Source: Lysinibacillus sp. FSL W8-0992
GTDB lineage: Bacteria > Bacillota > Bacilli > Bacillales_A > Planococcaceae
Direction of reading: 5' to 3'
Length of the DNA stretch: 64,000 nucleotides
NCBI RefSeq assembly: GCF_038008685.1
Contig: NZ_JBBOZQ010000001.1
Coordinates: 2,604,001 to 2,668,000 of the forward strand
Under the pieces are notes generated by a model, which had not been told where the DNA came from, did no database searches, and was given only the letters and a program-made list of their open reading frames with translations. Each line of letters starts with the position of its first letter. The stretch's first letter is position 1. Positions 1,965-9,367 of the stretch are shown piece by piece. The translations under genes and the position numbers were made by a program.

Positions 1965-3314
1965 TTATTGTTGACGATTTTTGCGTTTGTATAGAAGGAA
2001 AAGTCCGATAAACCAGATAGGTGTTAGTAAAAGAGCCGTTCTTGTTTCTTCGGAAATCAACATAACAACTAATAAAAACGCGAAGAATGCAAGTATTAAA
2101 TAGTTCACAAACGGTGTTAATGGAGCTTTGAAAATCGATGCTTCATGTAAGGCACGATTTTTACGTTTATAAATGATATGAGAGATTAAAATAATACTCC
2201 ATACCCAAATGAAACAGATTGCACTAATAGTTGTCACGACGCTAAAGGCGTTTTCAGGCATTAGCTTACTAAGTAAGGCCCCCACTGATACAACGATTGC
2301 AGAGATGATAAGTGCATTACTTGGTACACTATTTTTGTTTAGCTTTGCAAATGAAGCGGATGCTTGTTTATTGCGACCAAGATTATACAACATGCGACTT
2401 GTCGAAAATAAACCACTATTGCCTGCTGATGCGGCAGATGTCAGTACTACAAAATTAATAATACCAGCTGCAATAGGTATGCCAGCTAATGTAAATACTT
2501 GTACGAAGGGACTGCTTGTTCCAGACATTTCATACCAAGGGTTGATGCATAAAATGATTACTAATGCCCCAACATAAAATAATAAAATTCGTAGTGGAAT
2601 TTTGTTAATCGCAGAGGGGATATTTTTTTTTGGATCTGCGGTTTCTGCAGCAGAAACACCGACTAATTCAACCCCAACAAAAGCGAAGACAACCATTTGG
2701 AATGCCATCAGGAAACCGTATATGCCATTGGGGAAGAGCCCACCATGTGCCCAAAGGTTTTCCACTGATACTGTTCCAGAGCTTGTTTGGAATCCAGTGA
2801 ATAGCATGAATAATCCGATAATTATAAGTGCAACGATTGTTACAACTTTAATGAGAGCAAACCAAAATTCGAGTTCCCCAAATAGTTTTACAGTCAATAA
2901 GTTTAAAAATAATAAAAGTACTAGGCAGCCAATTGCAGGTACCCATTGCGGGATATTAAACCAATATTGTGTGTAGACACCGACGGCAATAATATCAGCC
3001 ATTGCGGTCATAACCCAGCAAAACCAATAGGTCCAGCCAGTGACGTAACCTGCCCAAGAGCCAATGTACTCTGTAGCGAAATCTGTGAATGAAGTATAGC
3101 CAGCGTTCGATAATAATAGTTCCCCGAGCGCCCGCATAACGAAAAATAAGGCGGTTCCGACAATAAGATAAGCCAATATAATAGAAGGTCCTGCTAAAGC
3201 AATTGCTTTACCTGCTCCTAAAAATAAACCGGTACCAATAGTTCCACCAATCGCAATAAGTTGCACATGGCGATTTTTTAAATCACGTTTTAATTGTTGC
3301 TGTTCCACGTTCAT
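1965..3314 (-). CDS. Amino acid permease (APC superfamily), glycine-riboswitch controlled
   Basis: A 449-aa transporter of the amino acid transporter (AAT/CycA-like) branch of the APC superfamily. The signature IGGTIGTGLFLGAGKAI sits near the N-terminus and about 12 hydrophobic segments follow. The start is ATG at 3314 (MNVEQQQLKRDLKN), preceded by GGGGGA. An in-frame extension to 3578 would read through the riboswitch and is not credible. The family imports proline, D-serine, D-alanine, glycine or aromatic amino acids. The glycine aptamer upstream suggests glycine or a small neutral amino acid as substrate; this is inference. Direction of transport is not shown by sequence. It is monocistronic, with its own terminator at 1890-1928. 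Confidence 0.88.
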   Translation of the reverse strand: MNVEQQQLKRDLKNRHVQLIAIGGTIGTGLFLGAGKAIALAGPSIILAYLIVGTALFFVMRALGELLLSNAGYTSFTDFATEYIGSWAGYVTGWTYWFCWVMTAMADIIAVGVYTQYWFNIPQWVPAIGCLVLLLFLNLLTVKLFGELEFWFALIKVVTIVALIIIGLFMLFTGFQTSSGTVSVENLWAHGGLFPNGIYGFLMAFQMVVFAFVGVELVGVSAAETADPKKNIPSAINKIPLRILLFYVGALVIILCINPWYEMSGTSSPFVQVFTLAGIPIAAGIINFVVLTSAASAGNSGLFSTSRMLYNLGRNKQASASFAKLNKNSVPSNALIISAIVVSVGALLSKLMPENAFSVVTTISAICFIWVWSIILISHIIYKRKNRALHEASIFKAPLTPFVNYLILAFFAFLLVVMLISEETRTALLLTPIWFIGLFLLYKRKNRQQ

Positions 3315-3350
3315 TCCCCCATAAGATGCGTAGAAGCTGTGACTGGAAAA

Positions 3351-3382
3351 TAAAAAGAGACTAGTAGCGACACTAGTCTCGT
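3351..3382 (-). terminator. Riboswitch-linked intrinsic terminator
   Basis: On the minus strand GAGACTAGT - GTCGCT - ACTAGTCTC is followed by TTTTTATTTT. It lies between the glycine aptamer and the permease start, where an expression-platform terminator would be expected. Confidence 0.8.
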
Positions 3383-3473
3383 AAACGTCAGAATAACAAT
3401 TACCATGTTCGAAAGTTTGGTTAGTTAAAAATAAATTTAACATTCGTATGGTATAGCTTTCGTGATGAAAGTT

Positions 3474-3565
3474 TATATTACTCCTCTGTCCTTTTGCCTG
3501 AGATAGTGAACCCTTCGGCGACGCAAATTGCGCTCTCTCCAGAAATGCTCCTGCTATAGTTTGAT
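3474..3565 (-). promoter_or_regulatory. Glycine riboswitch aptamer
   Basis: Read on the minus strand the leader has GGAGAGAGCGC, then GTCGCCGAAGGGTTCA, then CTCAGGCAAAAGGACAGAG. These are the conserved elements of the gcvT/glycine aptamer. I see only one full aptamer, so it would be a singleton rather than the classic tandem. The permease start lies about 160 nt downstream with a terminator between, consistent with control by transcription termination. Aptamer ends are approximate. Confidence 0.87.
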
Positions 3566-4116
3566 CCATAGCATTCATAGCTTTAATCTATACATTATTT
3601 TAAGATATTATTTATCCTATCAATGCCTAGCAAATAATTCAAGGGTAAATTTCAGTTGTTTACAGCAAAAAAAGAAGAATTCGGTCCATGCTGATATATT
3701 TATTACGAAAAATAGTTATTTTAGACATATTGTTTTTCTTGCAATGGGAGATGGCTTACAACAAAGTAGGAGAGTAGAATTAGAACAAGTATGGAGGCTG
3801 TGGAAAATTCACTTTTACGACAAAAAGAGTTATTTGATAAACGGCCTCGACAATACTTCGGAGCATTTTGACATTTTACTGTCCACTGTATGAGGAAGAA
3901 TAAGTTAAATTCAAACGAAATGGTTAGTCGTTAGACAACTACTATTATATAGAAGAAACTCTGAATTTTAGCAAAAAGAATCCATTACCAAAGCAGTTGG
4001 AATGGATTCTTTTGCGCGAAAATAAGCATTGGTGTCGATTTTTCGAAATACATGCTTTACTGTGAAAAGTACTATTTGAAATAGTCGCTTTTGCCTTATT
4101 AAGTTCGCTTTAATTG
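3566..4116. other. Intergenic stretch with a possible gene remnant
   Basis: The permease promoter should lie just right of 3566. A plus-strand run near 3792-3872 reads MEAVENSLLRQKELFDKRPRQYFGAF before a stop, too short to assign. The longer 121-codon plus frame at 3528-3893 begins inside the riboswitch antisense and has no ribosome-binding site. Nothing else recognised. Confidence 0.35.
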
Positions 4117-5657: not shown

Positions 5658-6449
5658 ATGGTACTCACAAATCATCAACCCGATGTAAACAAACAAATTG
5701 AACAGTTAAACAAAGATATTGAGCAATTCCCACAGGTTCACCCTGTTACGCCCGATATGCACATAACGCATAAAGGTGTATCAAGACTTGTGATGATCGA
5801 TCGCTACTCGTTTAAGGATACGGAAAAGAAAACGCTAAAAGCTGGTGATTTCGTCGTATTAACAGTTAAGGCAGATCCAAAATTCCCTGCACGTGGTTTA
5901 GGAACAATACAACATATCGATATGTCTACAAAAACAGCCGACATTTTGATTGAGGAAGACTACCGTAGCGCATTAGATGATCCTAAAGAGCAAGAAACAG
6001 GTGTGATTACACGTTCAATTGACGTGCTAGAAAAGCCTCTTGAAATATTTTATGAACAAATCGCAAAACGAAATGCAACAGGGCTTGCTTTAGTTGAAAA
6101 AACAGCTGAAAAACGCCAAGAGTGGTTTGAGAAATTTTATAAACAGCTTGTATCATTGAAATTTGTACCAGCTGGCCGTGTCATTTATGGAGCAGGTTCT
6201 GAAACAGATGTAACCTTCTTTAACTGCTATGTAATGCCGTTTGTTGCGGATTCACGTGAAGGTATTAGTGATCACCGTAAGCAAGTAATGGAAATTATGA
6301 GCCGTGGTGGTGGTGTAGGAACGAATGGTTCAACACTTCGTCCACGCAATACGTTAGCACGTGGTGTTAATGGTAAATCTTCAGGTTCGGTTTCATGGCT
6401 AGATGACATTGCAAAACTGACTCACCTTGTCGAGCAAGGTGGATCCCGT
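5658..6449 (+). CDS. nrdJ: Adenosylcobalamin-dependent ribonucleotide reductase, exon 1
   Basis: First 264 codons of class II ribonucleotide reductase, which makes deoxyribonucleotides using coenzyme B12. Strong start: GGGAGG then ATG at 5658. The redox-active first cysteine is visible in TFFNCYVMP (Cys190), and the exon ends EQGGSR. Translation without splicing would stop at TAA 6450-6452. Removing 6450-7588 joins Arg264 (CGT) to the next Arg codon in frame and restores the family motif GGSRRGAQM. The complete protein would be 856 aa. NrdR-like boxes upstream suggest deoxynucleotide-responsive control. Activity depends on intron splicing. Confidence 0.92.
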
Positions 6450-7588
6450 TAACCAAAACGGCGGGATTAAAATCTCGTGAATTGCTGGAACACCCTTAGA
6501 GCTTTTCTTGCTACAACGTAAACTGTGAAGTTAAACGTGAATGCTTGAAAAAAGAAAAGATTGGGCAATCAGCAGCGAAGCATCTGTGGAAATGCAGATG
6601 AACGTTCAACGACTATTGAACCTTCCTAAACTTTTAAGCCACTTAGGAGGTGGAAGCATGGAAGAAGTAAATCGTAATGTACGGAGACGTCCTTACGAGG
6701 CGCGAGACAAAGAACGATTGATTAAAGAGATTATTGAGTTACATGAGCATGGAATGAGCCAAGTAGATATTGCGAAAACACTTCGTATAGGTAGAGGAAC
6801 AATTCTTAGATGGAATAAAGAATTAGAACTTTTTAAACCAAGAACGCCTGGTGAAGCTGGTAAGCTGAAAAATAAGAAATATCGTTATAATGAAAACTAC
6901 TTTAAACAAGTTGATACAGCGAATAAGGCTTATTTAGTAGGTTATATTACAGGTGATGGAACGATTTTTGACCGCAGAAAATCAAAACGCCTTGTGTTAT
7001 CACTCGCAGAGCAAGATCGACAACTACTTGAAGATATCGCTAAAGAATTATGTATGTTGGACGCAATTAAATTCCGACCACGCACAGCGCCAAATGAACA
7101 AAATAAATACGCTTTACCAATCAATTCAACAGAAATGTGTAATGATTTAATTAAATTAGGAATTACACCACGAAAAACAGGTTTTGAACGTTGGATTAAT
7201 TTTGGAAGAGAAGATTTACAGTGGGCGTATTTAAGAGGTTTTTTTGATGCAGATGGTCATATATCAAGTCGTGGAAGACTCGGGTTTACAGGAAATAGTC
7301 ATATGCTCCTGTCATTGCTACAATTTCTTCATAATAATCAACTGGCTTTATCTGTCCACAAACTTTATCCGAAACAAGGTTGCGTAGACTTATACATTAC
7401 TCGAAAAGATGATGTGAAAAAGATTGCTCAACAGTTATATAAGTATGGCTCCATTCAACTCAATCGCAAATATGAAAAAATCAAATCCTTCTTTGATGAT
7501 ATAGTCTGATCTTATGTGAAAGCATAAGAATGTGGCAGAAATGACCGCATCGCAAAAGTATTTTAAAATACTTTTATGTAACAAAAAG
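6450..7588 (+). mobile_element. Group I intron inside nrdJ
   Basis: The 1139-nt intron starts after exon UCCCGU and ends with the expected terminal G. P1 is exon UCCCGU (6444-6449) paired with internal guide GCGGGA (6461-6466), ending in the required U-G wobble. P10 can form between 3' exon CGU (7589-7591) and ACG (6458-6460), directly next to the guide. Core elements: P near 6479-6494 (AATTGCTGGAACACCC), Q 6567-6580 (AATCAGCAGCGAAG), R 6604-6616 ending GACTAT, S at 7498-7506 ending ATAGTC; P7 is GACTAT/ATAGTC. A P9-like hairpin lies at 7511-7528 and a palindrome at 7554-7575. It hosts a homing endonuclease gene between R and S. Confidence 0.93.
6658..7509 (+). CDS. Intron-encoded LAGLIDADG homing endonuclease
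   Basis: A 283-aa double-motif LAGLIDADG endonuclease that would cut intronless nrdJ alleles and drive intron homing. The motifs are YLVGYITGDG (residues 92-101) and YLRGFFDADG (191-200), about 100 residues apart as in monomeric enzymes. Each carries the metal-binding acidic residue. A helix-turn-helix-like segment at about 18-53 (GMSQVDIAKTLRIGRGTILRW) may add DNA binding. The ATG at 6658 follows TAGGAGG; the frame is open from 6541, but that part lies in the ribozyme core and has no ribosome-binding site. The last two codons are the 3' strand of P7. No frameshift is seen, so it may be active. Confidence 0.92.
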   Translation: MEEVNRNVRRRPYEARDKERLIKEIIELHEHGMSQVDIAKTLRIGRGTILRWNKELELFKPRTPGEAGKLKNKKYRYNENYFKQVDTANKAYLVGYITGDGTIFDRRKSKRLVLSLAEQDRQLLEDIAKELCMLDAIKFRPRTAPNEQNKYALPINSTEMCNDLIKLGITPRKTGFERWINFGREDLQWAYLRGFFDADGHISSRGRLGFTGNSHMLLSLLQFLHNNQLALSVHKLYPKQGCVDLYITRKDDVKKIAQQLYKYGSIQLNRKYEKIKSFFDDIV

Positions 7589-9367
7589 CGTGGGGCACAA
7601 ATGATTATGCTGGCAGATTGGCATCCTGATATCGTAGAATTTATTATTTCAAAAATGCAAAATCCGCGTATTCTACGATACCTAATGGAAAATACAGCAG
7701 ATGAGACGATAATTCGTCTAGCAAAAGAAAAATTAAACTTTAAGCCACTTTCAATGCAAGAAGAAGCAATGTATCAAGGCATTGTTAATTATAAAGGTAT
7801 CGAGGGATTAGGCGGATTCGACAATGGGATTATCCGTGAAGCAGAAAATAAATTACGTGACGGTGGTACGTACACAGTTCATAACTCTGAGTTTTTAACA
7901 GGTGCTAATATCTCTGTAACGTTAACAAAAGAATTTATGGAAGCTGTTGAAGCAGATGCTGACTTTGAGCTTCGTTTCCCAGCAGTTGAAGAATATTCAA
8001 AAGAAGAAATGGCTATATACAATAGTGAATGGCATAAAGTTGGAGACGTACGTGAATGGGAGAAGATGGGCTACAAAGTTCGAACATATCGTACGATTAA
8101 AGCAAAAGAGCTTTGGAATCTAATCAACGTATGTGCAACATACTCTGCAGAGCCAGGTATTTTCTTTATCGACAATGCCAACGATATGACAAACGCTAAA
8201 GCTTATGGTCAAAGCGTTGTTGCGACAAACCCATGTGGGGAACAACCACTTGCACCATATTCAGTTTGTAACTTAGCAGCTGTCAACTTAGCACAGTTTG
8301 CAAATAAAGAAAACCAAACAGTTGATTATGAAGCATTACGTGAAACGGTCCGTGTTGGTGTTCGTATGCAGGATAATGTAATCGATGCAACACCTTACTT
8401 CCTAGAAGAAAACCGTGTACAAGCTCTTGGTGAGCGCCGTGTTGGTTTAGGGGTAATGGGCTTAGCGGATTTACTTATTTATTGTGAAAAAGAATATGGC
8501 TCAGAAGCGGGCAATGAACTTGTAGATGAAATCTTTAAAACAATTGCAGAAACAGCCTATGAGGCTTCTACAGAGCTAGCAAAAGAACGTGGCAGCTTCC
8601 CGTTCTTAGTAGGAGCGACAGAGGAAGAAACAGCACGTTTACGCAAAGCATTTACGGAAACAGGCTTCATGCAAAAAATGCCTGCACACATTAAAGAACA
8701 AATTTTAGAAACAGGTATCCGTAATTCGCATCTACTAACTGTTGCGCCAACAGGTTCTACAGGAACAATGGTAGGCGTAGCAACGGGTCTAGAACCGTAC
8801 TTCTCATTTACTTATTACCGTTCTGGCCGTTTAGGTAAATTTATTGAAGTAAAAGCGGAAATCGTTCAGGAATACTTAGACCGTCATCCAGAAGCTACAG
8901 AAGATAAACTGCCTGAATGGTTTGTGACTGCAATGGAATTAAAACCAGAAGCGCATGCAGATGTGCAATGTATCATTCAAAAATGGATTGACTCGTCGAT
9001 CTCGAAAACGGTGAATGCACCAAAAGGCTATACAGTTGAACAAGTAGAAAAAGTATACGAGCGCCTATATAAAGGTGGCGCTAAAGGTGGTACGGTCTAT
9101 GTTGATGGTAGCCGTGATTCACAAGTTCTTACACTAAAAGCAGAAGAAAATGATATGGATCAGTTATCATTTGAAGAAGAATTAGTAGAAGAGCACACAA
9201 AACGTCCAGTCGTATTAGTTGATACGATTCAAGCGCTTGAATCTACAACTGTTATTGGCTCGGATGTAGGGAACACATGCCCAGTATGTCGTAAAGGAAC
9301 AGTCGAAGAAATGGGTGGCTGTAACACATGTACAAACTGTGGTGCACAATTAAAATGTGGTTTGTAA
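7589..9367 (+). CDS. nrdJ: Adenosylcobalamin-dependent ribonucleotide reductase, exon 2
   Basis: Second exon, 592 codons, beginning RGAQMIMLADWHPDI. The active-site motif NPCGEQPLAPYSVCNLA carries the thiyl cysteine and glutamate (Cys480 and Glu482 of the spliced protein). The C-terminus has a CPVC...CNTCTNCG cluster with final CGL, as expected for the zinc-ribbon/redox-shuttle tail of class II enzymes. An unspliced reading from an ATG at 7532 would place 19 intron-coded residues in front, has no ribosome-binding site and is not the natural start. A strong terminator follows at 9392-9437. The gene is monocistronic apart from the intron gene. Confidence 0.93.
   Translation, partial: RGAQMIMLADWHPDIVEFIISKMQNPRILRYLMENTADETIIRLAKEKLNFKPLSMQEEAMYQGIVNYKGIEGLGGFDNGIIREAENKLRDGGTYTVHNSEFLTGANISVTLTKEFMEAVEADADFELRFPAVEEYSKEEMAIYNSEWHKVGDVREWEKMGYKVRTYRTIKAKELWNLINVCATYSAEPGIFFIDNANDMTNAKAYGQSVVATNPCGEQPLAPYSVCNLAAVNLAQFANKENQTVDYEALRETVRVGVRMQDNVIDATPYFLEENRVQALGERRVGLGVMGLADLLIYCEKEYGSEAGNELVDEIFKTIAETAYEASTELAKERGSFPFLVGATEEETARLRKAFTETGFMQKMPAHIKEQILETGIRNSHLLTVAPTGSTGTMVGVATGLEPYFSFTYYRSGRLGKFIEVKAEIVQEYLDRHPEATEDKLPEWFVTAMELKPEAHADVQCIIQKWIDSSISKTVNAPKGYTVEQVEKVYERLYKGGAKGGTVYVDGSRDSQVLTLKAEENDMDQLSFEEELVEEHTKRPVVLVDTIQALESTTVIGSDVGNTCPVCRKGTVEEMGGCNTCTNCGAQLKCGL

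Follow-up and report, generated by a model that had tools for sequence, protein, structure and literature searches.

Ribonucleotide reductase (RNR) genes are frequent hosts of group I introns in phages, and passages of two papers place further such introns in recA, nrdE and nrdF of Bacillus (PMC3984707, PMC3653736). RNRdb, by the passage that describes it, has over 100 group I introns curated in RNR entries (PMC2795772), so the insertion site considered here may be recorded there. The introns of Bacillus recA, nrdE and nrdF, cyanobacterial nrdE, Salinibacter nrdA and phage RNR genes (SP-beta, T4 and others) are likewise group I introns in genes of DNA metabolism, and in the passages that treat them they often come with a homing endonuclease (PMC3984707, PMC3653736, PMC3019208). 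For the group I and RNR context as a whole we used literature passages from six sources (PMC3984707, PMC3653736, PMC2795772, PMC4227781, PMC3019208, PMC1299323). Among the titles found in the literature, a set mostly free of subscription papers, none reported a group I intron in Lysinibacillus nrdJ or an intron shift by one codon.

We analyzed a stretch of 64,000 nucleotides from Lysinibacillus sp. FSL W8-0992 (the window; positions below are on its plus strand unless stated otherwise). Our sequence data indicate that its chromosomal nrdJ almost certainly carries a mobile group I intron that encodes a LAGLIDADG homing endonuclease. Exon 1 (5658..6449, codons 1-264) and exon 2 (7589..9367, codons 265-856 and the stop) flank an intron of 1139 bases (6450..7588), which begins with an in-frame UAA codon, ends in G, and splits the gene between codons 264 and 265 (GGSR/RGAQM). 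Joined, the two exons encode 856 amino acids with a single terminal stop and no inner stop. The NF005991 model for vitamin B12-dependent ribonucleotide reductase spans both exons (exon 1, E 1.6e-150, model positions 2-263; exon 2, 1204.5 bits, model positions 264-858), and exon 2 alone exceeds the model's cut-off, supporting the assignment of the host gene as a chromosomal class II (B12) ribonucleotide reductase, NrdJ. Across 45 pairs of carriers from ten genus members, exon 2 has a dN/dS of 0.032. The locus is an annotation trap, in that nrdJ looks broken into three; an in-frame GTG (7532) lies upstream of exon 2, and a mechanical ORF list gives two proteins.

The initial annotation had placed the splice sites after 6449 and after 7588, with G7588 as the terminal G, and had proposed an in-frame class II reductase of 856 aa as the spliced product; we read both splice sites the same way, and the joined exons and their NF005991 match agree with that product. 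It had also stated that no complete reductase would come from this locus without splicing. This is true of the locus, and the genome has a separate class Ib type RNR large subunit, encoded elsewhere by an uninterrupted ORF of 697 aa. A scanned 519-aa part of this subunit scored 457.1 bits with TIGR02506 (cut-off 341) and 698.8 bits with TIGR04170, for which the cut-off of 750 applies to the whole protein. On the 283-aa LAGLIDADG ORF within the intron (6658-7509) the initial annotation was silent.

The ends of the intron can be read from pairings with the exons. The P1 exon strand UCCCGU (6444..6449) forms six pairs, the last U-G, with the guide (IGS) GCGGGA (6461..6466), and the P10 guide ACG (6458..6460) forms three pairs with CGU at 7589-7591, both as first annotated. 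For comparison, we assembled a set of 37 related introns, drawn from genomes of the genus and family and from named genomes; the family is represented by selected loci, so that the set is not exhaustive, and six named-genome loci on contigs already included are left out. All 37 show six of six P1 pairs with a final U-G and at least two of the three P10 pairs. All 37 likewise have an in-frame UAA as first codon and G as last base; most were collected by a TAA-containing pattern, and the five that the pattern missed also start with TAA. Such stops are explained in a passage of one review as ribosome stalling that aids intron folding (PMC3984707). Three P1 combinations occur: at codon 264/265 (site A), UCCCGU/GCGGGA in 23 introns and AGUCGU/GCGACU in four, and one codon downstream at 265/266 (site A'), CGUCGU/GCGACG in ten. 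The serine codon, TCC versus AGT, switches in step with the guide and leaves the amino acid unchanged, and TCC was found in none of 13 intronless alleles looked at.

A covariance-model search for a group I core, which the initial annotation had proposed as a check, did find the core, with a score in the window below the gathering cut-off and a match that is partly misplaced. Rfam RF00028 matched 6342-6738 with a score of 38.4 bits and, for a search space of 1451 bases, an E-value of 6.8e-8; the model was absent from the window at the 50-bit gathering score, a curated cut-off and not a biological criterion, and was found with an E-value threshold. Within this match, P3 through P7 and P3' are the only parts located where we place them: the match starts with 46 model positions in exon 1, and its last part lies inside the ORF. 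The true 3' part of the core matches RF00028 separately at 7494-7526 (19.3 bits, E 0.036). We attribute the low score in the window to the ORF, which splits the core; an ORF-less relative at the neighboring site A' (L065, in genome G020) scored 74.7 bits, above the 50-bit cut-off.

The core elements P3-P4-P6-P7-P8 are present in the right order in the window, and all core helices pair. We counted paired cells and pairs with double changes across 36 of the 37 introns, with the ORF removed and one intron (L098) left out. The P3 5' strand UCUCGUG (6473..6479) and its 3' strand CGCGAGA, within the ORF (6701..6707), are paired in every one of the 252 cells, and two of their seven pairs show double changes. 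The P5 extension (6502..6509 with 6552-6559) is paired in 284 of 288 cells and has double changes at all eight pairs; P6a (6581..6586 with 6595-6600) reaches 212/216 and three of six, P8 (CAAAGAA, 6708..6714, within the ORF, with 7489-7495) 250/252 and two of seven, the P9 hairpin (7510..7529) 247/252 and four of seven, and the P9.1 hairpin (7530..7550) 215/216 and four of six. Sliding the partner strand by 1-3 bases lowered the number of paired cells for each of these six helices; it also lowered the number of double-change pairs, except for P3, where one slid version equaled the original at two. P4 (6482..6487 with 6570-6575) and P7 (GACUAU, 6611..6616, with AUAGUC at 7501..7506, the final coding bases ahead of the ORF stop) are paired and invariant in all 36. 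Covariation is uninformative for these two helices because neither ever varies, and P4 slid by +3 still pairs 213 of 216 cells. The variable P9.2 hairpin (7554..7575) is paired in 159 of 211 cells and is unsupported across the relatives, since slid versions reach 140/211 with as many or more double-change pairs. Group I introns of subgroup IA have extra P7.1/P7.2 elements between P7 and P3'; in the window, 84 bases separate P7 from P3'.

The intron ORF (6658..7509) encodes a putative LAGLIDADG homing endonuclease of 283 aa plus stop with an N-terminal helix-turn-helix, matches PF14528 in two stretches (E 1.3e-12), and is preceded by AGGAGG (6645..6650), its likely ribosome site. The helix-turn-helix rests on weak matches to several such domains, each below its cut-off. 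Two LAGLIDADG motifs, YLVGYITGDG and YLRGFFDADG, contain acidic residues, D100 and D199, that are invariant in 21 aligned rows. A structure model of the protein built with 21 sequences has a mean pLDDT of 85.8, and its fold matches I-AniI (best, E 1.9e-7), I-DmoI and I-SceI. Because the ORF overlaps the ribozyme elements P3', P8 and P7', its ends would be constrained as RNA as well as protein. Across 45 pairs from ten genus members, mean dN/dS is 0.127, and these substitution patterns indicate that the open frame has been kept under purifying selection; one of the ten (L013) has an in-frame deletion of 11 residues. There is one copy of the endonuclease in the window's genome. We rejected an IStron as the identity of the insert: the intron has no transposase gene, and the LAGLIDADG ORF is its only internal ORF of at least 80 aa. 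A frame of at least 240 aa occurs in 26 of the 37 introns; three long introns lack such a frame, three others (543-694 bases) hold endonuclease remnants only, and five (340-351 bases) are ORF-less. Open, decayed and ORF-less introns correspond to the gain, decay and loss through which homing elements are expected to pass.

Intron states vary widely among relatives. In 32 genomes of the genus, nrdJ has this intron at site A in ten, its relative at A' in two and, at a third site, B (266/267), a distinct insert in ten, and is empty in ten; no genome holds two of the three inserts together. The comparison with related strains that the initial annotation had suggested thus does turn up intronless alleles. 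The same annotation had regarded nrdJ as a less usual host in this lineage, a view countered by the 22 of 32 genus genomes with an insert after codon 264, 265 or 266, and by all 20 endonuclease loci found in named genomes, every one of which lies within nrdJ (17 at A, three at A'). With an insert within two codons of the site in 22 of 32 genomes, nrdJ is, by sequence comparison, an insertion hot spot in this genus. On an nrdJ tree from which the surroundings of the insertion sites were excluded, the states A, A', B and empty need at least 13 changes. The named loci come from Lysinibacillus, Neobacillus, Sutcliffiella, Fictibacillus, Sporosarcina, Lentibacillus, Pseudalkalibacillus and other genera. 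In the family, endonuclease matches occur in 52 of 261 genomes at E 0.001, and in only 15 are they better than 1e-90. One locus (L096, genome G166) bears an Arthrobacter label that is probably wrong: its nrdJ is 77-81% identical to that of the window, and the genome falls within the window's family. Within the genus, then, nrdJ shows empty, occupied, replaced and ORF-less states, to which the family adds decayed ones.

Homing predicts that the exon next to the intron is copied along with it, and the near-identical downstream exon among carriers agrees with that prediction at the level of sequence. The ten A carriers differ by about 11% along most of nrdJ, and by a mean of 0.6% over codons 270-281, versus 9.8% among the ten empty alleles. 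Upstream the effect is weaker at codons 253-261 (carriers 6.7%, empty alleles 15.1%) and gone at codons 241-252 (13.4% and 14.0%). The block at codon 270 is the lowest of 112 overlapping blocks in A carriers, and ranks 10 in B carriers and 17 in empty alleles. Relative to the remainder of the gene, divergence in this block has a ratio of 0.05 in A carriers, 0.57 in B carriers and 0.75 in empty alleles. None of 1000 random sets of ten genomes gave a ratio as low as 0.05, in shuffles that ignore relatedness. Part of the low divergence could come from splice-site constraint; B carriers and empty alleles have no A-like dip. Two pairs of genomes illustrate these changes at close range. Between a B carrier (G002) and an empty allele (G003), 11 of 36 bases differ in codons 253-264 and four of 36 in codons 241-252, compared with about 2% elsewhere. 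An A carrier (G027) and a B carrier (G013) are about 99% identical, and their three differences among the 36 bases of codons 253-264 all lie within the last three codons. Such near-identical genes, differing in the intron and a few guide-pairing exon bases, are natural experiments on homing, co-conversion and site change.

From these features we infer splicing, cleavage and spread along the following route. Translation of exon 1 would stop at UAA, the first intron codon; the intron RNA would fold, and the exon end UCCCGU would pair with the guide. An external guanosine would attack after U6449, the freed exon would attack after G7588, and the ligated mRNA would encode the 856-aa enzyme. The endonuclease would cut intronless nrdJ near GGSR/RGAQM, and repair would copy the intron and neighboring exon into the cut allele.

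Other accounts of the insert fit these data less well. Splicing might be a regulatory switch for which the host retains the intron, the immediate stop and conditional splicing setting the level of the class II enzyme. The UAA at the start of all 37 introns would suit such a switch, yet the same stops are explained in print, in the review passage cited above, by ribosome stalling that aids folding (PMC3984707), and ten of 32 genomes without insert and at least 13 state changes look like selfish turnover; we think a switch quite improbable. Alternatively, the intron might have decayed and no longer splice, leaving nrdJ broken in this strain, where the class I enzyme suffices. The uninterrupted class Ib type gene and the decay seen in relatives (three of 37 with remnants only and three long introns without a 240-aa frame) lend this some plausibility. 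In the window, however, all core helices pair, the endonuclease frame is open with the low dN/dS given above, and both exons keep their frame, with exon 2 under the still lower ratio found among carriers, which makes decay highly improbable here. That the insert is an intein, or that nrdJ yields an enzyme assembled from two separately encoded chains, is close to negligible: RNR genes are known to hold inteins, by a passage in one source (PMC3653736), and the GTG ahead of exon 2 is in frame, but the insert starts with a stop, its internal ORF is separate from exon 1, and it contains a group I core with covariation. A mobile, splicing-competent group I intron is thus the reading we carry forward.

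The ten A' introns (L065 and L077, from genomes G020 and G017; L079-L081, L083, L061, L097, L101 and L109) belong to the same family as the A introns and have a rewritten guide. We built a tree from the ribozyme cores of the 36 introns, leaving out the exons, P1, the guide and the 3' end. Support for many forks of this tree is modest (seven of its 33 inner branches are starred). Within the genus, both A' introns group with the ten A introns (100/100), apart from the A' introns of other genera, and A and A' need four changes, at least two of them by starred branches. A single clade was rejected for the ten A' introns (p 7.3e-5) and for 22 TCC-type A introns (p 2.5e-6). The 5' blocks follow a different pattern: GGCGACGTAATCTCG is found in all ten A' introns, GGCGGGA(T/G)TAAAAT in 23 of 23 TCC-type A introns, and GGCGACTTAATC in four of four AGT-type A introns. 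Because the 5' block is uniform in each class, yet the cores do not form one clade, the targeting end and the core have, on this sequence evidence, different histories. An endonuclease tree of the 26 introns with a frame of at least 240 aa leaves A versus A' unresolved.

These data raise the possibility, which we rate at about even, that the intron is modular, with a targeting end that comprises the guide, the 3' end and the neighboring exon, and a core plus endonuclease, the two being exchanged between two positions one codon apart. We favor exchange of ends by recombination over single-step sliding. Under sliding, A' would have arisen by mutation of the guide and 3' end, helped by the GTCGT with which both nested targets end, with no recombination. 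This origin is somewhat less probable and has definite attractions: AGUCGU/GCGACU at A and CGUCGU/GCGACG at A' are one guide base apart, each guide making five of six pairs with the other's exon, and the TCC codon that is typical of A carriers and absent from the 13 empty alleles looked at occurs in two of the ten A' carriers (L065, L101). A uniform A' 5' block over cores that do not form a clade nevertheless fits exchange of modules better than repeated mutation. It is rather unlikely, in our estimate, that A and A' go back to two introns of old and separate origin, with only parts passed between them. The 5' blocks are uniform per position, and rDNA homing endonuclease genes are described, in the passage available, as moving to introns in homologous or neighboring sites (PMC1299323); against this, it is the ribozyme core itself that unites A and A' in the genus (100/100), ORF-less A' copies included. 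If modules are indeed exchanged, one ribozyme lineage would have been repeatedly re-addressed within a conserved Arg-Arg motif, with synonymous exon codons rewritten to fit. This modular change of address is the part that could be new; the kind of intron is itself well known.

Counting relatives, nrdJ has seven insertion positions in total (A, A', B, C, D, E and F). Site B inserts (266/267) gave an Rfam group I match in 10 of 10, and genus-wide counts of such matches are lower bounds, with 45 of 407-891 candidate places scored per genome. In the one site B ORF looked at (L069:1500-2438), a nuclease-like DUF559 domain scores 29.2 bits against a cut-off of 20.6. A further group I intron, at site E, lies 30 bases downstream of A with a ten-codon exon between, and accompanies 12 of the 37 introns (L094, L098, L100, L103, L104, L106, L107, L108 and L045-L048; Rfam 72.5 bits in L094 and 65.6 in L103). 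The sequence GCG GAT, compatible with the guide GUCCGC, occurs in all 12 carriers and also in one non-carrier (L044); L101 and L109 were rejected as site E carriers, the exon there being merely divergent. Site C (481/482) has inserts of about 240-1200 bases in many genomes, for example L069:3321-4522. No Rfam group I match was obtained for site C at E 0.01 (two Lysinibacillus loci, L065, L066), and no Pfam model matched the site C ORF of L069 at E 0.01. The site C insert of G018 was ruled out as an intein, as its frames stop inside. Two codons from C, site D (483/484) is occupied by a group II intron that carries reverse transcriptase, maturase and HNH domains (L068:4456-7069, genome G022; Rfam 66.6 bits), and a site F insert (653/654) scored 79.9 bits with Rfam in L094.

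In 20 of the 32 genus genomes we also saw a distant RNR-like gene (rows at query 223-411, 28-31% identity). This gene seems to be intron-split in five genomes (G005, G018, G022, G025 and G026), in which a frame of 306-307 aa has an Rfam group I match just upstream. Elsewhere in the window, a glycine riboswitch on the minus strand (3476-3552, 50.8 bits) overlaps the mechanical ORF 1965-3578 at its 5' end; this ORF is by appearance a putative amino acid permease, and its true start is therefore probably further in.

In sequence searches the ribozyme is of phage type, and we sought a phage or plasmid donor and found none. The endonuclease matched 149 of 50,697 phage records, all at less than 60% identity, and the 20 of these 149 that were listed are 25-33% identical. 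Four endonuclease loci on viral contigs are 31-36% identical, and the DNA covered there contains no nrdJ. The 5' half of the ribozyme matched 287 phage and two plasmid records, none of which covers 80% or more of the intron.

How does this intron compare with known elements? The ribozyme 5' half resembles that of introns in Staphylococcus and other phages, with up to 83.6% identity over about 139 core bases among the matches listed. The 20 phage matches listed of the 287 cover 12-14% of the intron, and some lie under tail hydrolase, capsid protein or DNA polymerase features. The inserts at B-F in relatives share their host gene with the window intron, and none of them is present in the window. 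I-AniI (described as bifunctional, a homing endonuclease that also serves as a group I splicing factor) and I-DmoI have two LAGLIDADG repeats, as does the window ORF, at about 15-20% identity among the matches listed; unlike both, the window endonuclease has an extra N-terminal helix-turn-helix. Compared with the known introns of Bacillus, cyanobacteria, Salinibacter and phages, the window intron differs in its host, a chromosomal class II nrdJ, and in its combination of a LAGLIDADG endonuclease with an N-terminal helix-turn-helix.
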